From a bacterium (GTDB lineage Bacteria; Patescibacteriota; Minisyncoccia; UBA6257; GWB1-50-10): a stretch of DNA of 40,558 bases. Each line of letters starts with the position of its first letter. Position 1 is the first letter of the stretch. Below the pieces are notes generated by a model that was not told the DNA's origin, did not search any database, and saw only the letters and a list, made by a program, of their open reading frames with translations. Where the stretch lies: contig JAJYWR010000004.1 of NCBI GenBank assembly GCA_021791395.1, positions 1 through 40,558 of the forward strand, written 5' to 3'. Of this stretch, positions 18,921-36,142 are shown in pieces. Made by a program: the position numbers and the translations under genes.

Positions 18921-20087
18921 TTATTTTGAAGAGGGAAGAGCGAGTTGGTAGAGCGATTGGTCGTATCGATTCACAAAATATATATTATTTCCGAAGGAGG
19001 TAACCTCTGTGGCGTCGAGCATTGGTATGCCGGGTGCGCCGCTTAGGATAACCGCCCTCGTATTGCCGCTCGCAAATTGATAGTTATAGAGAATATCAAT
19101 CGTGTAGAACGCCTTCATGAGGTAATCGTCCGGCATGGTGACACTCTGGGTCAGGTTTTCCGGAGAGAAGCAGTAGATACTAGACGAAGAAGCGTTAGCC
19201 GACAAGTCGCATTTATTGGGGAGCGAAGGGAAGGGAAGGTTCGATGGTTGAAGAGTTGAAGTGTTGATAATGCTTGTTGTGCCATTTACCGTTTCATAAA
19301 TAAGAGATCCGTCGGCGCTCGGCTCGGAAAAGAGACCGTTTTGAGGTTCGAGGAGCATGTTGAGCGACAATGTTTTCAAATTTAGTTCCCACACGCTTCC
19401 CTGGTACGAACTTGAGGGCCTTTCGGTGATGATGAGTGTTCCGGGAGCGCTGAAGGTGAGTATCGCATTGTGGAAATAAACATTGTTCATAATTGTTTTG
19501 AAGGAGGGCGGGTTTTTTGTTAAATCAACATAAGCAAGGGAGTATGAATCAATGTTCTTTGTAAAGGCGATGAGCTGATTTTGATTTGCGCCCCACGTGG
19601 CATTTTCAATCGATTGGGGAAGAGGGTGCCATGTTTTATCAACTGCGTTGTAAACGGCCCATTGTGGCGACGTGGGGTCGCCGAAGGAAACGAGCACCTC
19701 TTGTCCGTTTTGGTAGACTTCGGCGCTCCGAAGTGCGCTCACGGTTTGTTGTGATTCAGATACATCACCCCCGTTTTTGGCGTTCCAAACCTCGCCGTCA
19801 GTCCCCAAGTATCGAACATCGCTCGTTTGAGGATCAACCCAGTAATAAAAGACGTTGTGGTCGGATATTTTTGTGAGCGTTGGTACGTTGACGGCGGAAG
19901 TTGTCGCCGTCGACGTTTCACTTGCGCCACCCGTCGTTCCCCCGGTCGGTAAACTTCCTCCGCCGGTGGTTGCGGAGGGGGTGGGTGAAACCGGCTTCGG
20001 GACGAAAAAGGTCCAGATAAAATACACAACGAGTCCGACGACAATTACAACCCCCAAGTAAATGAATATTTTTGAAAATCGTTTCAT
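18921..20087 (-). CDS. Membrane-anchored extracytoplasmic protein with G/S/T-rich linker, possible beta-propeller
   Basis: N-terminal TM (IFIYLGVVIVVGLVVYFIWTFFV), linker TPSATTGGGSLPTGGTTGGASETSTATTSA, then repeating beta-rich sequence; last gene of the T4SS-like operon. Confidence 0.55.
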   Translation of the reverse strand: MKRFSKIFIYLGVVIVVGLVVYFIWTFFVPKPVSPTPSATTGGGSLPTGGTTGGASETSTATTSAVNVPTLTKISDHNVFYYWVDPQTSDVRYLGTDGEVWNAKNGGDVSESQQTVSALRSAEVYQNGQEVLVSFGDPTSPQWAVYNAVDKTWHPLPQSIENATWGANQNQLIAFTKNIDSYSLAYVDLTKNPPSFKTIMNNVYFHNAILTFSAPGTLIITERPSSSYQGSVWELNLKTLSLNMLLEPQNGLFSEPSADGSLIYETVNGTTSIINTSTLQPSNLPFPSLPNKCDLSANASSSSIYCFSPENLTQSVTMPDDYLMKAFYTIDILYNYQFASGNTRAVILSGAPGIPMLDATEVTSFGNNIYFVNRYDQSLYQLALPSSK

Positions 20088-20093
20088 GGTAAG

Positions 20094-20948
20094 TTAATTT
20101 CCACTCAATGAAATGTGGATGTGCTCTTCCGACTCGCTGTAGTTCGAGCAATTATAGCGGATGTTTGAGTTTGCGTTTGTTGTGCAAATTTGATCGATGG
20201 GTACTCCATCCAACGTTCCATTGGTGCGATTGAGATTGTTTTGAATGTACGTTACAAGAGCACTCGTCGTCCGGAGGTCGAAAACGGGCTTGTTGAGACC
20301 GTGGGATACGTGACCAATTTCCGTCCCCCCGGTCACGGTGATATCGCAATTGCACGCCTTTTTCAAAGCAACGAGGAAGCTGATGGCGTTCGATGGCATA
20401 TCGGCCAAGCTGGTGCATTTTGCGTTGTATGCGTTGTAGCAGCCACCCGTTGAAGAGACGCCAACACCCGCGCTTTCGAGCGTTGTGAGGTTTGTGGCAT
20501 TACTAGCCCACATATCCGGCGACATTTGACCCCCGGGCACTGCTGGCGTCGGGGCAAAGGGCGCGCTGGGCGGCACGAGTTGCACCAAATTTGGATTGAT
20601 TTGATTCAAAATAAGATAAGCGCCGAAGAGGAGGACCAGACCGAAAAGAGCCGATGTTATGAAATCTCTCCCCTCCCGCTCTTTATCAACGCTCCCAGAA
20701 ATGGATATAAGAATGGAACCCCAGACGATCATACCAACGGCAAGAATGCCGCCGATGCCGAGGCCAAATCGATAGAGAAGCTGAATATAGCCGTTTAAGC
20801 TGCTCGAGGCGTTGCAGGTCCCATAGACGTCAGTGAGGAGGCAGGGCGGCGAGCTGTAAAGTTGAAGATCGAGCGCATGGGTCAAGGGGGGGAGAGCAAT
20901 AAAGAGCAGCGCGGCCACAATTAAAATTTTTTTCTTCTTATTGGACAT
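20094..20948 (-). CDS. VirB2/TrbC-like two-TM protein with C-terminal peptidase M15-like domain
   Basis: Signal peptide, two TM segments (YRFGLGIGGILAVGMIVWGSILIS; ITSALFGLVLLFGAYLIL), then TGGTEIGHVSHGLNKPVFDLRTT...EEHIHIS resembling the M15 H/D/HxH metal-site pattern. Confidence 0.6.
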   Translation of the reverse strand: MSNKKKKILIVAALLFIALPPLTHALDLQLYSSPPCLLTDVYGTCNASSSLNGYIQLLYRFGLGIGGILAVGMIVWGSILISISGSVDKEREGRDFITSALFGLVLLFGAYLILNQINPNLVQLVPPSAPFAPTPAVPGGQMSPDMWASNATNLTTLESAGVGVSSTGGCYNAYNAKCTSLADMPSNAISFLVALKKACNCDITVTGGTEIGHVSHGLNKPVFDLRTTSALVTYIQNNLNRTNGTLDGVPIDQICTTNANSNIRYNCSNYSESEEHIHISLSGN

Positions 20949-21624
20949 AAAGGTTCGTTTTTCCATATGCGAATTCGAATGCATTCGCTGTGTTTTGTAC
21001 CGAAGCGTTGATGGAGATGTTTTGTGCCGCGCCAACCTGCCCAACTTGGAGCGATAAGGTGTTGTCGGTGGTACTTGTCACGCTTTGAAGATTGTTGATG
21101 GTCCAAGAAAAAAGGAAATCATTGAAGGAGCCGACGTTGAAGAAGTACGGGATTATTTCAAGGTTGGCTGTTGAGTTTTGGTTTACGGTTTGGGCTGGAT
21201 AGGGAGCATTGATGACAGCCCTGTAGTTTACCACGGGGATTCTTGTTGACGCGGAAATGGTTTGCCCCCCCACCCCTATTTGCACACTTACGATATGGGA
21301 GTCACCCGCGGTTTTTGTGACGGTAAAGTTCGTCTGGGACTCTCCGACGCCGCCATTCATAAAATTCCCGTCCACATACCAAAGAATCGGCAGGTTTGAT
21401 GCGTCTTGAATTTTTTGATTATTGAGGACGATGACGAATAATGAAACGGTCGTGCCGTTGGTTGGGAGCGCCTTTCCAATAAAATCGGAAGGATAGTAAT
21501 TGTTTGCTCGCCAGGTGATGACGGCCGAGTAGTTATTTGCCGCTTGAGCGCTTGTTTTTGTCGCCACTCCGAGGGCCACAATAAGGGCAATGAGTACAAT
21601 AAAAATTGTTTTTGTGGTATTCAT
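20938..21624 (-). CDS. Secreted protein of unknown function, beta-rich/Ig-like
   Basis: Signal peptide MNTTKTIFIVLIALIVALGVATKTSAQA; beta-rich body; located inside the T4SS-like operon. Confidence 0.55.
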   Translation of the reverse strand: MNTTKTIFIVLIALIVALGVATKTSAQAANNYSAVITWRANNYYPSDFIGKALPTNGTTVSLFVIVLNNQKIQDASNLPILWYVDGNFMNGGVGESQTNFTVTKTAGDSHIVSVQIGVGGQTISASTRIPVVNYRAVINAPYPAQTVNQNSTANLEIIPYFFNVGSFNDFLFSWTINNLQSVTSTTDNTLSLQVGQVGAAQNISINASVQNTANAFEFAYGKTNLYVQ

Positions 21625-22079
21625 GGCAATTTGCTTAAGGCCTTAGCGGCTTTCCCGGCGGGAATTTGCGAGGTTATTTTAGAGATCTTTTTGCTGTTGG
21701 TCATAAAGACGGTTACGAGCCAACCTGCCGTTCGGAGCGGCAAGTCGCTCACGAGTGGGATTGAGTCGGCAACACCAACCAAGAGAAAGGTATAGTTTTT
21801 GATGTGTTTGAAAAAAAGGTAAACTTGAACGCCGCCGGTGATGAAGAGTCCGACTGCGGAACAGAGGAGCGAAACGGGAAGGAGTATCACCTGTCCGGCT
21901 ACCGGCACGAATTCAAGGAGTCCCACCATAAGTTCCACAAAATCCACAAACAAGAGAAGTGGTGTGATGAGGAAAATTTCTCCCCATCCGATCTTTGGGG
22001 CGTCGCCCGCGATATCCCGTGCGGCCCCATCAATCCCCTCCGCATTGAATTCTTGTAATGGTTTTAAATTTTCATCCAT
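21621..22079 (-). CDS. Small integral membrane protein of the T4SS-like operon
   Basis: 152 aa, several TM segments, ATGA-type overlap with the next gene. Confidence 0.6.
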   Translation of the reverse strand: MDENLKPLQEFNAEGIDGAARDIAGDAPKIGWGEIFLITPLLLFVDFVELMVGLLEFVPVAGQVILLPVSLLCSAVGLFITGGVQVYLFFKHIKNYTFLLVGVADSIPLVSDLPLRTAGWLVTVFMTNSKKISKITSQIPAGKAAKALSKLP

Positions 22080-23835
22080 TGTTTTCTTCTTTTATCCCCT
22101 TTGTTTCGAGGATTTGTTCGGGGTTTGTCGTGACAATTTGATCCTCGGTATACGAGGCGATGATGCGGATTGCGGCGTGTTTCAGGCCGGCAAAAAGCAA
22201 TCCTTCGCCGACGGCCGACTCGAGGAGTAATGCAGATTCTCCGTCGGTTAAGTTAAATGCTTTTTTTAGTGAATCAATGCTCGACGGTGACTGTTTAAGG
22301 AGAAGCTGCATGGCCGAGTTGGTAACGATCGGATGGCCGTATTCAGAGCGGAGAAAATCGTCTACATCCTGGGTTATCGTCGTAACACCGAGGTAATATT
22401 TTCGGGCACGCTTTACGAGACCAAACAAGAACGAAGCGCTGTCTTTGTATTTCATCATCCACCATGCTTCGTCGATCACGAGAAGTCGTTGCTTAAGTTC
22501 GGAGCGCACGAGATTCCAGACGAAGTTCAAAACGATATACATCGCGATCGGCCGAAGCTCTTCTTCGAGGTCGCGGATAGAAAAGACGATCAGCCGGTTC
22601 TTAATATCGACGTTCGTCGGAGCGTTCGTGAAGCCGGAATACGACCCATGGGTGTATTTATCCAACCGCTCCGCAATCCCCGATCCCCCCTCGGTATTTC
22701 GAAGGATGGTTTGGAGATCCTCAAGGAGCGGAGGGTTCATTTCTTTCAGTGTTCCGAAGTTTTCCGCGGTAATGTCACGGGATGTATATGTTTCAGTGAT
22801 CGCACGGTCGAGGAGAGCTTCTTCTTCCGGTGTTATGACCCCCAACATCAACTTTACGAGGCCGGTGAGGTTTAAAATGTGCGACTTGAAAACATCGGCC
22901 GGCTCTTCTCCTTCGGGGATAATGGGGATATCAAAAGGATTGATGTGATTTTTGGAGGTAAGCGAGATTTTAAAATAACTCCCTCCAATGGAATCGGCGA
23001 GATTTTGATATTCGTTTTCTGGATCAATCACAATGACATCGGTTCCCATCATGAGGGATCGGAGTATTTGAAGTTTTGTGGCGTACGATTTGCCGGATCC
23101 TGATTTGGCGAAGACGACCATGTTGGCGTTTTCAAGGGAAAAGCGGTCGAAAATAATGAGGGTATTGTTTTGCATATTGATCCCGTAGAGAATGCCGTTT
23201 TCAGAGGTGAGATCAGCAGAGGTGAAGGGGAAGATCGAGGACGCCGGCCCGCTGTTCAAGGGAGTTCTCACGGCAAGGACATCCTTTGCAATGGGAAGGA
23301 CGGAATTGAAGCCGTCTAATTGCCTGAAGAGGGCGGGTTTTACATACACAAGCCGGCTCTCCATGGCGTTCGTCACGGTTTCCTCGGTTTTTGCGAGCTC
23401 TTCAAGGCTCGAGGCATAAATCGTGATATAAACGCCGACCTCGAAGAGTCGTTCCCTTGCCTGCTGGAGTGCATCCCGCAGGTTTTCAATATCTTGGTAG
23501 GCAGTTTCAAGGATGGGGTCTCGCACAATCCCCTTTTCTTCCTTTTCTCCTATCTCAGCCTCAACTTGAGTTACTTTTTTTCTCAAGTTCCTTAAGGCGA
23601 GGGCGGTATCCATGGGGTGGATAAATATGGAAATATCCATCATGGCCGGCAAATTGATGATCGGCGAAAACCACCCCGTCGAAATGTACCGCGGATACGT
23701 GAAGATGAAGAAGGTTTTGGCAAAATAATCGCCGACCTTCAAGTAGTTGGAATTTACCTCCACACCCGACGGAGCGACGATGTTGAAGAGATCTTCTTCT
23801 CCTGGCTTGTATGCTTTTGGTATTTGAACCTTCAT
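22072..23835 (-). CDS. virB4: VirB4/TraC-like conjugation ATPase (ATPase half)
   Basis: MVVFAKSGSGKSYATKLQILRSLMMGTDVIVIDPENEY; LLVIDEAWWMMKYKDSASFLFGLVKRARKYYLGVTTITQDVDDFL. Confidence 0.9.
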   Translation of the reverse strand: MKVQIPKAYKPGEEDLFNIVAPSGVEVNSNYLKVGDYFAKTFFIFTYPRYISTGWFSPIINLPAMMDISIFIHPMDTALALRNLRKKVTQVEAEIGEKEEKGIVRDPILETAYQDIENLRDALQQARERLFEVGVYITIYASSLEELAKTEETVTNAMESRLVYVKPALFRQLDGFNSVLPIAKDVLAVRTPLNSGPASSIFPFTSADLTSENGILYGINMQNNTLIIFDRFSLENANMVVFAKSGSGKSYATKLQILRSLMMGTDVIVIDPENEYQNLADSIGGSYFKISLTSKNHINPFDIPIIPEGEEPADVFKSHILNLTGLVKLMLGVITPEEEALLDRAITETYTSRDITAENFGTLKEMNPPLLEDLQTILRNTEGGSGIAERLDKYTHGSYSGFTNAPTNVDIKNRLIVFSIRDLEEELRPIAMYIVLNFVWNLVRSELKQRLLVIDEAWWMMKYKDSASFLFGLVKRARKYYLGVTTITQDVDDFLRSEYGHPIVTNSAMQLLLKQSPSSIDSLKKAFNLTDGESALLLESAVGEGLLFAGLKHAAIRIIASYTEDQIVTTNPEQILETKGIKEENNG

Positions 23836-23842
23836 GGATTGA

Positions 23843-24520
23843 TTATTGGATAGCTACGCCTTTTTTCTCAGTCAGTTGCGGATTGTAGAGATTATAAAAT
23901 AATTCAGTGAGTTCATCGTCTTCCAGGGGTGTCGCGCGAAGATCCATTTGTTGAAGGCCGGCAATGATACCTTCGACCCGGTTCCTCAGTTGTTCGAGGT
24001 TCTCTTGAATTTTAACGCCGGCCGCTTGGTTTTCCGACGGTGTCGGTGCGCGTTTTCCGAACTTGAACACATTGAAGAGTCCCGACGTTGTCGCAGTTGT
24101 TTCGGGTGTTGGGTTGTAAGGAATGGCAATGAAGAAATTTTTGCTGATGATTGCATTTTCTTCGACGAATGATTTTATAAAGCTGAGGTACTCGTCGATT
24201 TGTATTTTCAAAAGTTCATTCGTTTCGTTCTTTTTTCGTTCGCTGATATTCTCGATGTATTTTTGGATATTAACCTTTCTGGAATGGATGAAAAATTGCG
24301 TCCTGAAATCGAGGGAATTGAGAAATTTTTGGAACGTACCAATGATGGCGTTTTGTTCTTCTTCCGATTTAAGGTCGAAGTTGATGCCGTTAACCATGAT
24401 GACTTGAACCAAGCCGCCGTCCTTGAGATAGATGACGCCGTCTTTGATCTTTCTGATCTCCACCAGATTTTGTGTTGGGAGGCTTGTTTGAGCCATTTCT
24501 TTTATTTTATCAATAGTCAA
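23843..24520 (-). CDS. VirB4/TraC N-terminal domain-like protein (separate ORF)
   Basis: LVEIRKIKDGVIYLKDGGLVQVIMVNGINFDLKSEEEQNAIIGTFQKFLNSLDFRTQFFIHSRKVN, typical of conjugation-ATPase N-termini; immediately precedes the ATPase ORF. Confidence 0.75.
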   Translation of the reverse strand: MTIDKIKEMAQTSLPTQNLVEIRKIKDGVIYLKDGGLVQVIMVNGINFDLKSEEEQNAIIGTFQKFLNSLDFRTQFFIHSRKVNIQKYIENISERKKNETNELLKIQIDEYLSFIKSFVEENAIISKNFFIAIPYNPTPETTATTSGLFNVFKFGKRAPTPSENQAAGVKIQENLEQLRNRVEGIIAGLQQMDLRATPLEDDELTELFYNLYNPQLTEKKGVAIQ

Positions 24521-25010
24521 CCCGCTTGGCTAATTTTTGTTCACCGGTCAAGTAGGTCACAACTTCGTACCCTTCCCTTTTCTTTTCTTCCTCTCCCGGC
24601 AGACCCTTCCCAAGGATCCGTCCGACGGAAACCTTAAGGGCGAGGGATTTCAACTTTTCTTGGATGCTCATGTTCTTTCGAAGATTGTTTAAATCTTCGT
24701 CGGAAAGCTCCAGGGTGGTCTCGGCAAGCTGCCGCTGCCATGTGTAAGTCCTTGATTGTGTGAAATAACTGAAGACCGAGCCGAGAACCCTCGTCATGTC
24801 TTGCCCGTTGACCTTTACAAATGCGAGTGCGATGCCGGCGGCAAAAGCGATCAGACTTACAAAAATCCAAATGAACGCGTTGAAGATGTTGTATGCGACA
24901 AAACTTACCGCCGCCGCTCCGGCAAGATAAAAAAATTGCACAAGCGTGAGTGGCCCAACGATTTTTGCCTTTTGTTCTATAAATTGAGGTACTTGAAACT
25001 CCATGATCAA
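24510..25010 (-). CDS. PrgI-family (VirB3-like) membrane protein
   Basis: MEFQVPQFIEQKAKIVGPLTLVQFFYLAGAAAVSFVAYNIF...; PrgI pattern. Confidence 0.85.
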   Translation of the reverse strand: MIMEFQVPQFIEQKAKIVGPLTLVQFFYLAGAAAVSFVAYNIFNAFIWIFVSLIAFAAGIALAFVKVNGQDMTRVLGSVFSYFTQSRTYTWQRQLAETTLELSDEDLNNLRKNMSIQEKLKSLALKVSVGRILGKGLPGEEEKKREGYEVVTYLTGEQKLAKRVDY

Positions 25011-25013
25011 TGA

Positions 25014-25889
25014 TTATCCCTTGAGATTAATGACGTTCCCCTCAAGGGTGGGTCCGGCTTCCGCTGGTTTTGGTTCTTGCTTTTTCATAATGGCGTTGAT
25101 AAACGGTTTCTCTTCGGTGGGTTTTTCGGGCACCCCTACCTCGGGGGCCGGTTTGACGAGGGGAACAATTTCCTCGGTTTTTAAGAATTCACCGCCCGCT
25201 TCGAAGGGGGAGATTGTAGATCGCGATTCCATATAGTGTACAACCCTCTTCGTATTGTCGGAGGGCGTTTCCACCTCCGCCTTTACGGTTTTGGATTCCG
25301 CGATGGCAGTCGGTTTTTTCGATTTGAAAAATCCCATCGAGAACGATGGCAACACTCTTCCTGAAAATCCCGACGACGGTCGCGTTTCCTCGGGCTTTCC
25401 TTGGAGAACAAAAGGAGTCGCCTCCTCCTCTTTTTTTATTTTTGGAGAAACCTCCTCCATTCGCAGGATTGGAATGGTCTCCGGTTCGGATTCTGAGACA
25501 TCAAGAGATTCCAAGTGTATGGTTTTTTCTTCTCTCGCCGGCTCTAAATCCTCCTTAAGGCCAAGGTGCTCGATGTCTTCCGCATCACTCGCTTTGATCT
25601 CGCTGATGTCGACGCCCCACCGGAAGAGCGGGTATCGTTCCGATTCGAGAATGCGCTCCTTTATTGCCTTCGCTACTGATTTTGCTATTTTTTCACCGAT
25701 GCCCGTTTCCGCAAGGGATTCAATGAAATAATGAGCAGGCGTTTCCTTTGCAATGAGATCGTAAAAAGCGCCCGGCAGAAGTGCGGGATTTGCGATGCAG
25801 GCCTTACTCCTGATGTCATCGAGAATCTCGTCAACTCGTTCCGAGAAGAGGCTGTTTTTTATGTTTTGCGGAATTTCGTCGAACGTCAT
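25014..25889 (-). CDS. Cytoplasmic protein of unknown function in the T4SS-like operon
   Basis: 291 aa; helical N-terminal ~100 aa and a long low-complexity, charged/proline-rich C-terminus; tight gene spacing on both sides. Confidence 0.55.
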   Translation of the reverse strand: MTFDEIPQNIKNSLFSERVDEILDDIRSKACIANPALLPGAFYDLIAKETPAHYFIESLAETGIGEKIAKSVAKAIKERILESERYPLFRWGVDISEIKASDAEDIEHLGLKEDLEPAREEKTIHLESLDVSESEPETIPILRMEEVSPKIKKEEEATPFVLQGKPEETRPSSGFSGRVLPSFSMGFFKSKKPTAIAESKTVKAEVETPSDNTKRVVHYMESRSTISPFEAGGEFLKTEEIVPLVKPAPEVGVPEKPTEEKPFINAIMKKQEPKPAEAGPTLEGNVINLKG

Positions 25890-25892
25890 AGG

Positions 25893-28106
25893 TTATGATG
25901 TTTCGTGTTCCTGTGTCCTTTCTTTGTACAAACCTTCGCCTTGCCAGCTTGTTTGCTTCGCTGCGGAAAGATTGTTGCCGATCGCCTTCTTTCTCAGCTC
26001 CCTGTCGCCTCCGGTGGCGTTGTCGATGGTTATTGTTTTGGTGACGGTTTCCCGCGGCCTTCCGTCTTCTCCGAGGAGAGGACTTGTTTCTCTCACTTCA
26101 TATGTGCCGCCATTCTGAAGAGTGTTTTGAATATCGGTGACTTTCTTTTGCAGCTCGTTTCTCTTTTGTTGCAATTTTGTCATTTCCTCCGTCTTACCGA
26201 GGTCTTTTGCGTCCTTGTAATCCTTCAACGTCGCGTCCAATTGGTCGTTGGTTTTATCCAAAAGGTCAAACATCTCCTTCACTGCGGCCCGCTTCTCATC
26301 CGTTGCAGCGCCCGAGATAAAGGCTCCTTGGATACCTTTCATGTATTCTTCCTTTTGTGCTTTTGCCCCCTTGTTACCTAAGTCGCGTATTTGCTGTTGT
26401 CTTAAGTGAGGCGCAATTTGTTTAATAATATCCTTGTCGAGTTTCGATACGTCCTCTACCTTCCCAACGGCTTTCTCCAGATCCATGCCGGCGGCAGCGG
26501 CAGCAACGGGATCGAATGCCGCTATCCTCTCCGTTGCCCCAGCTCTCTTGATTGCCTTCACGAGCTTTGCCTTGGTGCCGTCGTTCAAGAGATTCCATCC
26601 GCCTTTTTCAGCCAAGGCGAGAGCGGCGCCCACATCATCCTCGGTCATGACGGTTTGCTTATCGAGTTTGGCAGCCAAGAGTTCCTTTGAGTATTTTTTG
26701 TTTTCGCCCTGTGATTTGTCTATCTCCTTCTTGGATTCTTCCTTTGCGCCGAATGAAGCGCCGGCAAGGCCGCGGAAAGCGCCCCCGACGACCGGTATCC
26801 TTCCCAGGCTTTCCCCTCCCCGCTCGAGCCACGATTTCCCATCCTTGTCGCCGGCGGATCCGGCCGTGAGCGCTCTTCTGCCGAGTCTCCCAGCTCTCCC
26901 AACAGTCTGTTTTCCGGCCCACCCCTTTGCTTTTTCGCCGGTCTTCTTTGCAACGCCCATCAGGGCGTTTGCGCCGGCAATGCCCATGCTGTTTGCGGCC
27001 ATGAGTCCGCCGATCAAAAATCCGACCAAAATGAGCATATTGGTGAGTTGGATGACGGCACCGCTGATGAGCGTCGGGTTCAAGCTGGCGTTTGAGTTTT
27101 GGCTCAAAATCGTTCCCGAAATGTTATTGACCGCATTTACCGTGGCAAGGGTAAGATAAAGAAAGAAAGAAAGGATAGGGGCTACGAACGCCCAATGGAT
27201 AAACTGAGACCACCACTTCCCCCCCTCGCTCTTTAACTGTCCGATTGGTATCACATTGAAAAGCCACGGCAAGGGCGCGATCGCCATGAGAAATGCGAGC
27301 CACACAAATCGCGAAAGGAGCATGAGGGCGACGGCGAGCATCACGAGTGCCATAAGGAAGGTAAAGGCAGTAGCGAATAACAAACTCCCCACGCTCACAA
27401 TGGCAGTTGAAAATCCGGGCGTCAGGGTTTTCGCGGTGGTTTGATCAATCTCAAGGAGTTTTTGGGGATTAAAAGCCGCCGTTATTTCGCTTCCAATGTC
27501 CTGCGATTGGGCATAAGATCCATTGCCGAGCGATCGGTCGATGAAGAATTTTGTCACCACGTTCGTAAAGTCGAGAATGGCTCCGCCGATCATCAAGCTG
27601 AAATTCACAAGAATCGCGGCGGCGATGAGTTTGGGGAGCATTTTTTGGGCGCCGTACTGATTGAATCGGAGGATGGTCATAAAAGCGATCACGATAAGAG
27701 CGAGGACAAATCCGAGGTTTGCTAAATCCCTCGTAACTTGCCAGCCGGTCAAGACGACCGGCATTTCCATAATGTAGTTGTTCAAGCCGAAGGCGAAAGA
27801 AATAAGCTGGGAACCGAGGTAGATAAGAACGCCGGCAACCCATCCGAGGATATTCATCACGACGGTGACTGCGCCCGTAACCGTCGTGATCAACCCCTCC
27901 TTTATTACATTGAGAGCCGTCGAGCCGAAGGTCGCAAACTGAGCGGCGGTGCCGAAAGAGGACGTTGCGTTCGTGATTGGTACTTGGACGGTGGTTTGGG
28001 CTTTTGTGCCCGGCGATAAAACAGCAAAGAGCAGAATTGCCAGAGCTATGCCGATCACGAAGTTCCTCTTTTTCAACATTTTCATTAAGGTTTCAGTAGT
28101 TGCCAT
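25893..28106 (-). CDS. VirB6/TrbL-like polytopic membrane protein with long charged cytoplasmic tail
   Basis: 737 aa; signal-like N-terminus, multiple TM segments to about residue 390, then about 350 aa of charged helical sequence. Confidence 0.7.
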   Translation of the reverse strand: MATTETLMKMLKKRNFVIGIALAILLFAVLSPGTKAQTTVQVPITNATSSFGTAAQFATFGSTALNVIKEGLITTVTGAVTVVMNILGWVAGVLIYLGSQLISFAFGLNNYIMEMPVVLTGWQVTRDLANLGFVLALIVIAFMTILRFNQYGAQKMLPKLIAAAILVNFSLMIGGAILDFTNVVTKFFIDRSLGNGSYAQSQDIGSEITAAFNPQKLLEIDQTTAKTLTPGFSTAIVSVGSLLFATAFTFLMALVMLAVALMLLSRFVWLAFLMAIAPLPWLFNVIPIGQLKSEGGKWWSQFIHWAFVAPILSFFLYLTLATVNAVNNISGTILSQNSNASLNPTLISGAVIQLTNMLILVGFLIGGLMAANSMGIAGANALMGVAKKTGEKAKGWAGKQTVGRAGRLGRRALTAGSAGDKDGKSWLERGGESLGRIPVVGGAFRGLAGASFGAKEESKKEIDKSQGENKKYSKELLAAKLDKQTVMTEDDVGAALALAEKGGWNLLNDGTKAKLVKAIKRAGATERIAAFDPVAAAAAGMDLEKAVGKVEDVSKLDKDIIKQIAPHLRQQQIRDLGNKGAKAQKEEYMKGIQGAFISGAATDEKRAAVKEMFDLLDKTNDQLDATLKDYKDAKDLGKTEEMTKLQQKRNELQKKVTDIQNTLQNGGTYEVRETSPLLGEDGRPRETVTKTITIDNATGGDRELRKKAIGNNLSAAKQTSWQGEGLYKERTQEHETS

Positions 28107-29998
28107 TTTTCTTGGATGGCGGGAAGGCTTTGAAGAATCCCCCGGATGCCCGAGATGCCAACCTTCGTCAGTTTGTTGATGACCGCGTTTTGGATGATGG
28201 TGCCGATATCAGTCAGATCCTGTGCGTTGATGATGGCATTCGTATCGACTTGGGAGGCTTGTTGGGCCAAGCCCGCGGCAATATTTGACGGCTGGGTGAC
28301 AATGGCGCTCGCGCACTGGTAATACGTGGACTTATTGGAGCTCGTGTAGATTTTGCCGGATGATTGGTCGAAGAATGCACTTGGAGTCAACATCGATTGG
28401 GCATCCGTCGGGACCACCATGCCGTTCGGATCGCTGAAGGTATTGTTCAGGGCATAGCAAACGCCGTTTTCCAGCCGGGTGTTCGACGATCCGGAGTTGC
28501 AGTAATACGATGGCTGTTCTTTATATTCATCCCATTCGGTACACGCGTAGGTGTTTTTGTAGCCGTTCGATTGACTCATTTGGCTTTGAAGGTTTTGTTG
28601 TGCCACATCGTTCGCTTGCGCGGCCATTTGCTGGGTGATGAGTGATGCGCCGTAGTAGTTGTTTTGCGGCATCCAGATCTCCTGATACCCAAGCCAATTT
28701 CCACTCCGGAAATTGGTGTAAAAACCCTGGATGTTTGAAACCACTTGGTTTAAGGTACAGCTCGCTTGCTGATAAAACGGATTCGACTGTCGGTTTGTTG
28801 TGGGGATTTGGAGCGTTACGGCGAGCTGGAACGGTTGGCAAAGCTGCGGCGCGACTTGGGAAATGATATTGTCGACGGCGTTCAATCCAGCGTCCGCAAG
28901 GTCTTTGAGGGGCCGTTGGAAATACTGCGGAGGATTCACGGTGATCTTCCCGTCGGAACTCACCTTGATACCTCCGCCTTGGATCCAGTCGACGGTCTCG
29001 GTGGTGAACTGGTAGAGGAGAGACCGCTTGATCGTCTCGACGGTATCCTGGAGGAGGAGATTGCACTTCGCTCTCGTGTCCGCGATGAGCTCTTGGTTCT
29101 TTTGTTCGGCGATGACTTGTTTCGTCGCTTCCGTGTTTTGGTTCACGGCTGATTGTACGCTTTGGTCGTAGACGGGAACTTGGGTGCTGAGACCGAGTGC
29201 TGATTTTGCAAACTGCGTGAGTTGCCCCGAGACGTTGAGACCTAGCTTGGTAAGCTCTTGCTTCATTTGATTTTCGACATCGCTCCTAATGTTGCTGATT
29301 TGGTTGTTGACGCTTTGCCCCAAGGCTGAATGGGAAAAGATGTTTTGGAGGGCGCCTTGGATGCTGTTGCTGTTGAAAAAATTCGTCAGTTGATTGATTG
29401 AAAGGTTCGGGGTGCCGAAGATGCTTTTCAGCGTGCTGGTTCCGACGAGGGTGCTGAGATCTATTTTGTAATTGCCGAGTGCGTTAGAAAGCAGATTTTT
29501 GATCTTTGGCATAATGAAGAGGCCGATATTTTTTTCGAGTTGCGTGGAGCTCCCCAGGGTTGTATACCACGCATATTTTTGCGCGATTTGAGCCGCCGCA
29601 AGGCATGACTCCATGCCCGGAGGGTTTTGCTGTTCAGTTGTCGAAAAAAGTCCGCCGCCGGTCGCCGTTCCGTTGCTGCATGCCCACCGTATGGTATCTC
29701 CCGCGTGAGTTGAGCTTGCGGTATTTAGAGTGTAGGTCGGCACCGTCGCTCCCGAGGTGGAGTCCGTTGATGTGGTTAGCCCGAAACTCCCCGGCAAGGC
29801 AGTTGTGGGCGTTGGAGGAGAAGTAAAATCGTTAAGGTTGGCGGGGTCAACCGGGTTGCCGTTCGATGCCCACACGAGGCTATACGAATCGCATGACTGG
29901 GAAACGGTTTGGGCACTCGAAAGAATCGGGAATACCGCATAGGTCACTGTTATGACGCCAAGGAGAAAAACCGCGGCAGTTTTAAATAAGTTTTTCAT
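28085..29998 (-). CDS. Large secreted protein of the T4SS-like operon (function unknown)
   Basis: 637 aa, signal peptide, N/Q/S/T-rich, several Cys; position upstream of the VirB6-like gene. Confidence 0.55.
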   Translation of the reverse strand: MKNLFKTAAVFLLGVITVTYAVFPILSSAQTVSQSCDSYSLVWASNGNPVDPANLNDFTSPPTPTTALPGSFGLTTSTDSTSGATVPTYTLNTASSTHAGDTIRWACSNGTATGGGLFSTTEQQNPPGMESCLAAAQIAQKYAWYTTLGSSTQLEKNIGLFIMPKIKNLLSNALGNYKIDLSTLVGTSTLKSIFGTPNLSINQLTNFFNSNSIQGALQNIFSHSALGQSVNNQISNIRSDVENQMKQELTKLGLNVSGQLTQFAKSALGLSTQVPVYDQSVQSAVNQNTEATKQVIAEQKNQELIADTRAKCNLLLQDTVETIKRSLLYQFTTETVDWIQGGGIKVSSDGKITVNPPQYFQRPLKDLADAGLNAVDNIISQVAPQLCQPFQLAVTLQIPTTNRQSNPFYQQASCTLNQVVSNIQGFYTNFRSGNWLGYQEIWMPQNNYYGASLITQQMAAQANDVAQQNLQSQMSQSNGYKNTYACTEWDEYKEQPSYYCNSGSSNTRLENGVCYALNNTFSDPNGMVVPTDAQSMLTPSAFFDQSSGKIYTSSNKSTYYQCASAIVTQPSNIAAGLAQQASQVDTNAIINAQDLTDIGTIIQNAVINKLTKVGISGIRGILQSLPAIQEKWQLLKP

Positions 29999-30740
29999 CT
30001 TGTATTTTTTGGTTTATTTCATTCTGTATTTCGGAAAAAACGGCATCGAATTGATTCGATCCTCCTTGGTAGAGGGCGATCATAAATCGTACCGGGTCGT
30101 TGTTCGCCTTGGCGAGTGACTGAAAAACATTCCGTTGGTGGATGAGGAGTGTCAGGAGATTTTTTTGAATTGAGACCCACGAGGGCGGGACCTTGACCGC
30201 CTCGAGAAGTTGTACGGCCGTATTGAAGTTCTGCGCCGCGGTTGTAAACGATGTCGCAAGGTTCGTCGAGGGCGTTGAGGTTCCGCTGAAGGTTGGAATA
30301 TCCGAGATGACTTGATTCACGTAGAGGAGGTAGAGGGTTTGCGCCGCCTTTGAGTCATCGGTGCCGACGGTGATGTCGGAGCTCGTGACGACCTCGGTTG
30401 CATACTCATTGTCGATAATTTGTGAAATGGTCTTTTGAATATCCGACGTGTTCGGCGGAAGGATGCTTGCGGGTCCGCTCGTTTGATATAGGTCGTTCGT
30501 GATTGCGCTTTGAAACACCTTATTTGCGAAGTCAAGGGTCAGGTTTTCGAGAGGATTTGATTGGAAAACAAGCGACGGATCGAGTTTTGCGCCCTTGGTG
30601 CTTGTGGCGATGGAAATGCCGGTCGCCTGCGGCTCTGCCGATGCGGGTTTGATGATGAGATAGGCGCTCAAGCCGACGGCCGCGCCCAAAATGAGGATGC
30701 CAACTACTCTTCTTTTTCTTTTAGTTAAATGAAGTCTCAT
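29982..30740 (-). CDS. Membrane-anchored extracytoplasmic protein, first gene of the T4SS-like operon
   Basis: 252 aa, N-terminal TM VVGILILGAAVGLSAYLIIKPASA; helical remainder. Confidence 0.55.
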   Translation of the reverse strand: MRLHLTKRKRRVVGILILGAAVGLSAYLIIKPASAEPQATGISIATSTKGAKLDPSLVFQSNPLENLTLDFANKVFQSAITNDLYQTSGPASILPPNTSDIQKTISQIIDNEYATEVVTSSDITVGTDDSKAAQTLYLLYVNQVISDIPTFSGTSTPSTNLATSFTTAAQNFNTAVQLLEAVKVPPSWVSIQKNLLTLLIHQRNVFQSLAKANNDPVRFMIALYQGGSNQFDAVFSEIQNEINQKIQDEKLI

Positions 30741-30821: not shown

Positions 30822-31190
30822 CTATAATGAAGGGGTTTTTGACGTGCCGATGACGTATACAGGCATCGCGAAGACCGGTACCGGAGGAACAGTCGTCGTA
30901 AAACAGATCGGGAGCGGCGTCGGAAGATACAACCCGAGAATCCAAATACCCGGCGCGATGACTTCTGTTGGAAAACCAATGAGGGCTGAGGCGGTTCCGC
31001 CGAACGGGCCGACTGCCGAAAGGCCAGCCGGCGTAATTGTGAAGGGTGGTTTTCCGTCGGAACAGACTGCGCCCGGTACCACGGTCGTTATTTTTCCGCC
31101 GAATGGCAAAAGTATGCCGGCGGCGAATGTCGGTGCGGCAATGAGCGATATGCCAAGCGCAAATACGGAAGCAAGAACAATTTTTTTCAT
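30822..31190 (-). CDS. Small secreted/membrane protein, unknown function
   Basis: MKKIVLASVFALGISLIAAPTFAAGILLPFGGKITTVVPGAVCSDGKPPF...; signal peptide; ATG at 31190. Confidence 0.6.
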   Translation of the reverse strand: MKKIVLASVFALGISLIAAPTFAAGILLPFGGKITTVVPGAVCSDGKPPFTITPAGLSAVGPFGGTASALIGFPTEVIAPGIWILGLYLPTPLPICFTTTVPPVPVFAMPVYVIGTSKTPSL

Positions 31191-31965: not shown

Positions 31966-32132
31966 GTAGTACAGTGTAAAGCTCAAAGTATAAATTTCAA
32001 AATTAAAATTCAAAAGTGGAAAGTTTTACGTTTTGGTTTTGTTGTTTAAGTTTTGCATTTTTCACTATTTCTGCTATACTTATATGTATTCGTGTTTGGC
32101 TCAAATATGCAGGGAGCTTTGGGGGCTCCCTC

Positions 32133-32972
32133 TTGAGATCCGCAGCATTCTGGGGGGCCTTTTTATTTGTGGCGGCAAGCGTGACCTTTTCCGCCTTTGG
32201 TGCCGGTTTTGGGGAAGGGGCTTCGAGTACACTCTTCGGTTCCGGCGGACCGACTGCGATTTCTCAAACTTCTTACGTTGTCGCGGGAACGGGGGAAGCT
32301 TCCCCGAGTGAAAATACCGTTTTGAACACTGTTTTTGTTTCCGATTCGGCGATCATGGGAGATTCGAGTCCTCTTATCGGCATTGTCCCCCTCGGAAACG
32401 GCATGATGAAATATAAAGTACGTCGGGGCGATACACTCTCAAGTGTTGCAGGACAATTTCGAACGACGGTTGCCGAGATAAAACTCGCGAACCAAAATAC
32501 GAAGAATCTTACGCCGGGCTCATGGGTTGTCATTCCGTCGGTTGTCGCTTCAGGCACGCTGAGTGTTGCCACAAGCTCAACAAATCTCCCTAATCTCAGG
32601 GGCTACTTTAGCTTGCCGGCCGTCGGATGGAATTGGGGGACACTGCACCCCTATAATGCAGTCGATATTGCGAACCAGTGCGGCACGCCGGTCTCCGCGG
32701 CCGCCGATGGACTCGTGGTATCAGATCCGAATCTCGGAGACGGCTCGTCCGGATGGAACGACGGCTATGGAATCTTCGTGCTTGTAGAACATCCAAATGG
32801 CACAAAAACGAGATATGCTCATCTTGCTAAAGTGCTCGTGAAGGTCGGCGATGTTGTCACGAAAGGCCAAGAAATTGGGCTTATGGGAAATACGGGGAAT
32901 ACTCAGGGGCCTACTGGTTGTCATTTACACTTCGAGGTGTACGGAGCAAAGAATCCATTCGCGATAAACTAA
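32133..32972 (+). CDS. LysM + M23 peptidase (murein endopeptidase-like)
   Basis: LysM MKYKVRRGDTLSSVAGQFRTTVAEIKLANQN; M23 WGTLHPYNAVDIANQCGTPVSAAADGLVV...GCHLHFEVY. Track start 32016 lies upstream of a probable promoter; TTG 32133 proposed; start uncertain. Confidence 0.85.
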   Translation: MRSAAFWGAFLFVAASVTFSAFGAGFGEGASSTLFGSGGPTAISQTSYVVAGTGEASPSENTVLNTVFVSDSAIMGDSSPLIGIVPLGNGMMKYKVRRGDTLSSVAGQFRTTVAEIKLANQNTKNLTPGSWVVIPSVVASGTLSVATSSTNLPNLRGYFSLPAVGWNWGTLHPYNAVDIANQCGTPVSAAADGLVVSDPNLGDGSSGWNDGYGIFVLVEHPNGTKTRYAHLAKVLVKVGDVVTKGQEIGLMGNTGNTQGPTGCHLHFEVYGAKNPFAIN

Positions 32973-35038: not shown

Positions 35039-36142
35039 TTACCGGAGGTCTTGAAGGGCAGCCTTGTATCCGTCGTATGAAGACGCGATGACGAGAACAT
35101 CACCCTTCCATCCATAGTCGATGCCGTAACCATTCTTACTGAAGAGGACGTAGCGGTTCGATGTCGCGGCATCCCCGCTCTTCCACGCCCCTTCCGTTCC
35201 GGGGTCGGCGGCGAAGAAATTCTTCAAATTCGTATTTGCTTCGAAAATTTGTGCAAAGGACGCCTTTTCATCGACGAGACTCGAGGTTGCCGTAAGTTTT
35301 GCAACGAAACCGAGCCACCGGGCGCCACTTGAGTCGACGTATACGAATCCGGAGACGGAAGTGGGATCAAATGCCTGAGTAAGTCCTGAGTTCGAAAGAT
35401 CTATCGAGAGCAGTGATTGCATGAGTGTTGAAAAAGGAATCAAATTCCCGTTTTGGTCTGTGAAGGTAACTTCCACGAGGGCCGGTTCTTTGGAGGTGCC
35501 GAGTGACAAACTCGTTAAGTTGGTCCCGGAGATTGGGGAAGTTGAATTAATCAAACCATCGGTCGTTCCAAAAAGTGAAGTGTGCGCGAGCGGCGCTTGA
35601 GGTGTCGTGGTTGCCGTGCTGCTCGCCGTTGTTTGCGATGAGCTCGTTGTGTTTGTTGAGGTTTCCGTTGTCGTTACGACTGCAGGGACCCCCGTGGTTT
35701 CTGTCGTAGTCGGCGTGGCGACGGGCTGCTCGGTTGTTACCGTCTCGGCGGGCGGTTTAGTTGCCGTGAACATGGGATAAACAAGGAAGTACCCTACCGC
35801 CCCCACGGCGAGGACAATGATGAAGGCAATGAGGCCGATCAACGCACCTTTCCCCTTTTTCTTGCCGGTCGGCACCTGCGGTGCAGAATTTCCAGCCACC
35901 TGATCCATGCCAGTCGGCACCTGCGGTATCTCAAAGTTAAAATTATCGGGCGTGGCGCTTGGTGTTTGTGGGGCCGGCGGAGGCGTTGCCGTCGTTTGCG
36001 GGGTGTATGACTCTGGCGTTCCACCGCTTTGTATGGAATTCAAATCTGAAGCCATGGTTCGTACATCGACGTTCTTCTGCGGCTCCCCCCCGCCCATCGA
36101 CGTGGGAACTCCCGGGACTTGGTTAAAGTTTTGATCTGCCAT
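35039..36142 (-). CDS. Membrane protein with proline-rich cytoplasmic N-terminus and extracytoplasmic domain, unknown function
   Basis: 367 aa; P/T-rich ~90 aa, TM GALIGLIAFIIVLAVGAVGYFLVYPMF, T/S-rich linker, globular C-terminus. Confidence 0.6.
   Translation of the reverse strand: MADQNFNQVPGVPTSMGGGEPQKNVDVRTMASDLNSIQSGGTPESYTPQTTATPPPAPQTPSATPDNFNFEIPQVPTGMDQVAGNSAPQVPTGKKKGKGALIGLIAFIIVLAVGAVGYFLVYPMFTATKPPAETVTTEQPVATPTTTETTGVPAVVTTTETSTNTTSSSQTTASSTATTTPQAPLAHTSLFGTTDGLINSTSPISGTNLTSLSLGTSKEPALVEVTFTDQNGNLIPFSTLMQSLLSIDLSNSGLTQAFDPTSVSGFVYVDSSGARWLGFVAKLTATSSLVDEKASFAQIFEANTNLKNFFAADPGTEGAWKSGDAATSNRYVLFSKNGYGIDYGWKGDVLVIASSYDGYKAALQDLR

Follow-up and report, generated by a model that had tools for sequence, protein, structure and literature searches.

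The 40,558-nucleotide stretch analyzed here (hereafter, the window) is contig C4 (GenBank JAJYWR010000004.1) of a 580,713-base patescibacterial genome that is about 85% complete. It contains eleven consecutive open reading frames (ORFs) on the minus strand that an earlier interpretation, made without database searches (the sequence-only reading), had described as a compact, minimal operon resembling a type IV secretion system (T4SS), beside the replication origin. All eleven genes, with the starts given there (the higher coordinates of g02 to g12 in Table 1), are confirmed as ORFs, and the packing is as tight as described, neighboring ORFs overlapping by at most 22 nt or being separated by at most 7 nt. 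The operon is flanked by dnaA, rnpA-yidC-jag and ksgA, in agreement with the proposed location among housekeeping genes at the origin. Here we compare it with 120 loci, 40 from near-relative genomes and 80 from named genomes (Jorgensenbacteria, Wolfebacteria, Harrisonbacteria and other Paceibacteria), with about ten loci representing the same genome twice, and focus on g11, a VirB2-like pilin with a C-terminal enzyme-like domain.

Table 1. Features of the operon and its surroundings (window coordinates; ortholog counts refer to the 120 loci)
Feature	Coordinates	Strand	Assignment	Evidence	Loci
LysM-M23 peptidase	32016..32972	+	LysM-M23 peptidase, divergent, adjoins ksgA	PF01551 5.8e-26, PF01476 3.7e-08	
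Ser/Thr-rich protein	35039..36142	-	Ser/Thr-rich membrane-anchored protein		
g01	30822..31190	-	small secreted protein	co-directional, 81 nt upstream of g02	21/120
g02	29982..30740	-	membrane-anchored helical protein without family		64/120
g03	28085..29998	-	large secreted protein with conserved GGW...PQNNxYG core, without family		72/120
g04	25893..28106	-	VirB6/TrbL-like polytopic membrane protein	via orthologs	
g05	25014..25889	-	cytosolic protein without family	directly before PrgI	90/120
g06	24510..25010	-	PrgI/VirB3-like	PF12666 2.4e-08	113/120
g07	23843..24520	-	TrsD-like N-terminal half of VirB4	NF041427 1.3e-10, NF045975 1.5e-13	118/120
g08	22072..23835	-	VirB4 ATPase half	PF19044 1.6e-27, NF045971 6.3e-115	
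g09	21621..22079	-	small membrane protein without family		68/120
g10	20938..21624	-	secreted Ig-like repeat protein	ortholog profile vs phage Hoc Ig domains 4.3e-06	109/120
g11	20094..20948	-	VirB2-like pilin with C-terminal enzyme-like domain	PF18895 5e-08	107/120
g11 C-terminal domain	20106..20456	-	hedgehog/DD-peptidase-like putative zinc domain	invariant H, D, H, H; profile matches	
g12	18921..20087	-	membrane-anchored TolB-like beta-propeller	ortholog profile vs TolB 6.1e-11	93/120

The PrgI/VirB3, VirB4, VirB6/TrbL and VirB2 parts that had been recognized from the sequence alone are all borne out by Pfam and NCBIfam matches, VirB6 through its orthologs. The VirB4 ATPase half scores 385 bits against NF045971, the CD1110 family (cut-off, 325), and its Walker A (GSGKS) and Walker B (VIDEAW) motif residues are invariant in the VirB4 alignment. 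At most loci, VirB4 is encoded in two ORFs, the TrsD half and the ATPase half, and at few in one long ORF; a frameshift or an assembly error was ruled out as the cause of the split, which is conserved. Because the two halves form a single long ORF of 718-802 amino acids in L063, L064 and L068, the protein has been fused or split more than once. Among 29 orthologs of g04, five match PF04610 (TrbL; best E value, 1.3e-07), the window copy by itself has no Pfam match, and the VirB6 profile gave chance-level matches only against PDB. The recurrent gene order across the loci is ksgA-g02-g03-VirB6-g05-PrgI-TrsD-VirB4-(g09)-g10-pilin-g12, followed by the convergent jag and yidC and then by dnaA, with the operon genes on one strand in almost all of the 120 loci. 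The most frequent adjacent pairs are TrsD-VirB4 (114 loci) and PrgI-TrsD (109), followed by g10-pilin (91), g05-PrgI (89), pilin-g12 (83), VirB6-g05 (81) and g03-VirB6 (70). The operon is neither a chance arrangement of ORFs nor a mobile element because the same order and strand are kept in 120 loci; it almost certainly encodes a chromosomal, non-conjugative T4SS of Patescibacteria.

In the AlphaFold model of g11, the helices at residues 51-83 and 87-117 form a VirB2-like hairpin, with the C-terminal domain lying beyond it. Conserved motifs and profile comparisons indicate that this domain is probably of the hedgehog/DD-peptidase (M15/LAS) type, and it is predicted to bind zinc and to be catalytically active. 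The hallmark of the hedgehog/DD-peptidase family is the pair of motifs H-X(6)-D and H-X-H (PMC6027127). In an alignment of the window copy with 14 relatives (A11; 15 sequences altogether), H62, D70, H122 and H124 (fragment numbering) are invariant; H-X-H is present in the window domain as HIH, likewise invariant, and a Glu located six residues before the last His is spaced from it as E177 is from H183 in Sonic hedgehog. When two subgroup profiles were compared with all PDB sequences, hedgehogs accounted for 12 of 13 and 23 of 23 matches, respectively, all of them weak (E values of 0.67-2.1 for the first profile and 0.05-0.6 for the second). Members of the domain match Peptidase_M15_4 at 4.4e-04 and other M15 families marginally, and the hhalign comparison with M15_4 enzymes yielded an E value of 4.6e-04 with a probability of only 33%, seven control families scoring 0.2 or worse; for the second subgroup, hhalign against the M15 sets remained at the control level, and it is the PDB profile search that ties this subgroup to the hedgehogs. 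PF13539 by itself detects the domain in only 8 of 188 genomes and, therefore, family scans miss these domains.

The presence of a wall enzyme on the pilin is a generalization that is independent of the hedgehog assignment in the window. Pilins of relatives, encoded at the same position of the operon, carry tails that Pfam identifies as M23 (2e-33 and 8.2e-21), NlpC/P60 (2.3e-11 and 4.7e-07), VanY (4e-12), YkuD (6e-12) or SLT_2 (6.7e-09); the term "wall enzyme" is used broadly here, given that YkuD domains are L,D-transpeptidases. These domains are always C-terminal to the pilin domain, which in L123 is itself weak (0.027). Assembly artifacts were ruled out as the source of the fusions, since independent genomes carry them at one and the same position. 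Across the class, 59 of 286 genomes contain the hedgehog-like domain and, among 30 such domains that were checked, 26 are located on pilin-domain ORFs. The collected loci contain 119 pilin ORFs, whose tails comprise 39 of a recognizable wall-enzyme type (with three genomes counted twice and two tails assigned by motif alone), 13 that are short and 67 others. Tandem pilins in L111, L117, L127 and L145 have tails that resemble, in weak Pfam matches, beta/gamma-crystallin or peptidase-inhibitor I36 domains, not wall enzymes.

Close relatives differ in the tail, which is exchanged among at least five wall-enzyme families. On a VirB4 tree of 98 loci, which includes relatives only, the tail type changes at least 26 times (a raw count), and 15 changes are observed when only the enzyme types are considered. 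In a supported clade of seven Nomurabacteria-type loci, the VirB4 sequences are 85-91% identical and the pilin cores 46-73% identical, and the tails represent five wall-enzyme families: hedgehog-like in L105, NlpC/P60 in L123 and L141, VanY in L125, YkuD in L137 and SLT in L144, with a short tail in L146. This clade is the best set for studying tail exchange. Within the genus of the window, too, genomes with a VirB4 88-90% identical to that of the window carry different tail subtypes.

The best overall explanation, to which we assign a probability of about 0.5, is a T4SS with a specialized pilin that carries a swappable wall enzyme for crossing peptidoglycan. Gene content, synteny, fusions, motif conservation and tail exchange can be read directly off the genomes; that the machine displays the enzyme, and on which target, we infer. 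The two VirB4 polypeptides, together with PrgI and VirB6, would form an ATP-driven motor and membrane platform that handles VirB2-like pilins, and the Ig-like g10 and the TolB-like propeller g12 could be wall-side or surface parts of a scaffold. The two-helix part of g11 would be inserted in the membrane and then taken up by the machine. In VirB2 pilins, a C-terminal extension lies outside the membrane, in or beyond the wall. The zinc domain of g11 would thereby be placed outside the membrane, where it would cut peptidoglycan and let the apparatus cross the wall. A densely packed pilus would have little room for so large a protein in each of its subunits; g11 would therefore be a minor or tip-like pilin rather than a plain major one, and plain shaft pilins may come from a separate five-gene array.

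The rapid exchange of the enzyme families points to adaptation, probably to a target that itself changes, and hence to the wall of a host rather than to the cell's own; the simplest candidate is the bacterium to which the cell attaches. More tentatively, the exchangeable pilin enzyme could open the host wall, with its family turning over faster than the machine and the tail serving as a readable marker of the type of host wall. Few machines are known to be indispensable to the epibiotic lifestyle of Patescibacteria, and the T4SS is among them. If the proposed role is correct, the replaceable, pilin-borne enzyme would offer a concrete next step, namely, asking which wall is cut and whether the enzyme follows the host, and the pilin tails could aid in assigning types of host to uncultured genomes.

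Several observations weigh against this explanation. The window domain has the spacing H-X(7)-D, whereas relatives, L150 among them, have H-X(6)-D, and taken alone it matched no Pfam family and found nothing in PDB. Foldseek comparison of the full-chain g11 model with PDB and BFVD produced no DD-peptidase and nothing usable, the model being dominated by its helical hairpin. Given that 67 of the 119 tails are not recognized enzymes and 13 are short, the activity cannot be required everywhere; the non-enzyme tails may bind rather than cut. Finally, both the host wall as the target and the assembly of g11 by the machine are steps that we infer.

A serious rival, if a somewhat unlikely one, is that the enzyme performs the function of VirB1, opening the cell's own wall for T4SS assembly, in which case the enzyme families would be equivalent and uninformative with regard to the host. 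VirB1-type wall enzymes belong to monoderm conjugation systems and are scarce in Patescibacteria (PMC12102498), orthologs of g12 can bind peptidoglycan (a PG_binding_1 domain is present in two of them), and the genome encodes its own wall synthesis, with ORFs for a penicillin-binding protein and MurE-like, RodA and MltG-like proteins. However, the enzyme family changes among loci with 85-91% identical VirB4, faster than expected of the cell's own wall chemistry, and a LysM-M23 enzyme already adjoins the operon. The T4SS could instead serve mainly as a conduit by which host DNA or other host macromolecules are imported, as has been proposed (PMC12102498), and the wall enzyme would then only clear the path. 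Such a role fits both the lack of a linked coupling protein or relaxase and the reliance of these cells on molecules made by the host, but no uptake protein was found in the operon; as a separate explanation this is quite unlikely, and it is compatible with, rather than opposed to, the specialized-pilin explanation. We consider it highly improbable that the C-terminal domains are delivered effectors (toxins), with the pilin part as the export signal: the rapid replacement of one C-terminal enzyme family by another, at a single locus and behind an N-terminal part that stays constant, is reminiscent of polymorphic toxin systems, but no pattern of immunity genes was seen beside the pilin, its neighbors in most loci being g10 and g12 irrespective of the tail type, and short and non-enzyme tails are common. 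The X-T4SS of Xanthomonas, which kills bacteria, likewise combines a T4SS with diverse peptidoglycan-degrading domains, but it is a diderm machine with VirD4, an outer-membrane core, immunity proteins and effectors that bear dedicated signals; a linked VirD4 and the other three of these features are not seen in this operon.

The least probable alternative is an ordinary integrative conjugative element (ICE) inserted near the origin. The VirB4 does belong to the conjugation family NF045971 and a VirD4-like gene exists elsewhere in the genome, but the place beside dnaA and ksgA and the gene order are the same in 120 loci, VirB4 is present in 53 of 59 near relatives, which is not a sporadic distribution, and no relaxase was seen among the window ORFs or, for PF03432, in the genome (this is one family, and other MOB families were not searched; the search is limited also by the incompleteness of the genome). 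This reading was rejected on the strength of the fixed synteny, the lack of a PF03432 relaxase and the unlinked VirD4-like gene. The sequence-only reading had suggested a domesticated, single-membrane apparatus, had proposed examining synteny across relatives, and had named linkage to a relaxase or VirD4 with sporadic distribution as speaking against it. The opposite is seen, and the suggestion is supported by the class-wide synteny, by the unlinked VirD4-like gene and by the lack of PF03432 and of the TcpC/VirB8 family PF12642 in the genome (structural homologs of the latter may remain), although it had already been published.

The VirD4 match is the only one in the genome, a VirD4/T4SS-DNA_transf-like ATPase of 788 amino acids (29.5 bits, above the cut-off) on contig C7 (L163:5667-8033). 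Its gene lies in a housekeeping region, preceded by that of a prepilin-like LamG-type protein, and no relaxase was recognized beside it. A second PF18895 pilin array, located away from the T4SS operon on contig C10 (L161:7398-10529, about 83400-86530), consists of ORFs of 518, 123, 124 and 249 amino acids with five domain hits and follows gyrA and a gene for a solute-binding protein. The earlier statement that no VirD4 gene is seen in the window is correct; this gene and the second array lie elsewhere in the genome.

The machine itself is already known. The T4SS of Patescibacteria has been described in 2,407 assemblies as nested in MPF-FATA, with PrgI, TrsD, VirB4, VirB6 and VirB2-like pilins; it is often found near dnaA, dnaN, rnpA, ksgA and rpmH, mostly without a relaxase, and VirD4-like genes are far from virB4 (PMC12102498, Microb Genom 2025). 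In Southlakia epibionticum, the equivalent locus, SEML1_0006-0019, is essential (PMC10633639), as are the peptidase and lysozyme genes directly downstream of virB4 (PMC12102498). The operon described here shares with this system the five components, the lack of a linked relaxase or coupling protein and the chromosomal position near dnaA, rnpA and ksgA; it differs in that the two papers, in their text, present wall enzymes as genes of their own and describe no fusion with a pilin, whereas here, and in many Paceibacteria, the enzyme makes up the C-terminal end of a pilin. The monoderm conjugation systems of the MPF-FATA type (pGO1, pCF10 and CTn2) resemble it in the CD1110-family VirB4, PrgI and the TrsD half, but have a relaxase, a coupling protein and a separate gene for a VirB1-type hydrolase, and lack VirB2 pilins (PMC12102498). 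With the hedgehog/DD-peptidase family (PMC6027127), the g11 domain shares H...D...HxH, the Glu spacing and the C-terminal location in a larger membrane protein; it differs in its fusion to a T4SS pilin, its marginal sequence similarity and the H-X(7)-D of the window copy. We found no report of a fusion between a pilin and a wall enzyme in a T4SS in the papers searched, supplementary tables and subscription papers aside, so that earlier notice is possible; so far as these papers show, the pilin with an exchangeable wall enzyme would be a new part of a known machine.

Single-sequence Pfam and NCBIfam scans of g02, g03, g05, g09, g10 and g12 revealed nothing credible, and the folds of g10 and g12 were resolved only by ortholog profiles. 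The description of several operon proteins as lacking an obvious family accordingly stands for g02, g03, g05 and g09 but not for g10 and g12, which, like the enzyme-like half of the pilin, had been overlooked. The label "minimal" is apt only in part: a number of proteins beyond the core are conserved as well, and the pilin probably includes the domain that opens the wall. Against PDB, the profiles of g02 and g03 gave chance-level matches only, with no credible one for g02, and the AlphaFold model of g03 has a predicted local distance difference test (pLDDT) score of 54, too uncertain for a fold search. Across relatives, g05 retains a VVHYxE-type motif and a GNxIxL-type C-terminus, with a variable middle part, and a frame of 2,328 amino acids occupies its position in L042; this protein is possibly an adaptor.

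The g01 gene is probably the first gene of the operon, which would then comprise twelve ORFs. An Rfam scan of the window returned no matches. The LysM-M23 peptidase gene is found beside ksgA in about 20 of the collected loci and possibly encodes an accessory wall enzyme. A further membrane-anchored protein encoded near the operon, rich in Ser and Thr, has an ortholog in L036 that is weakly caught by the g12 profile, perhaps via the transmembrane-linker part alone.

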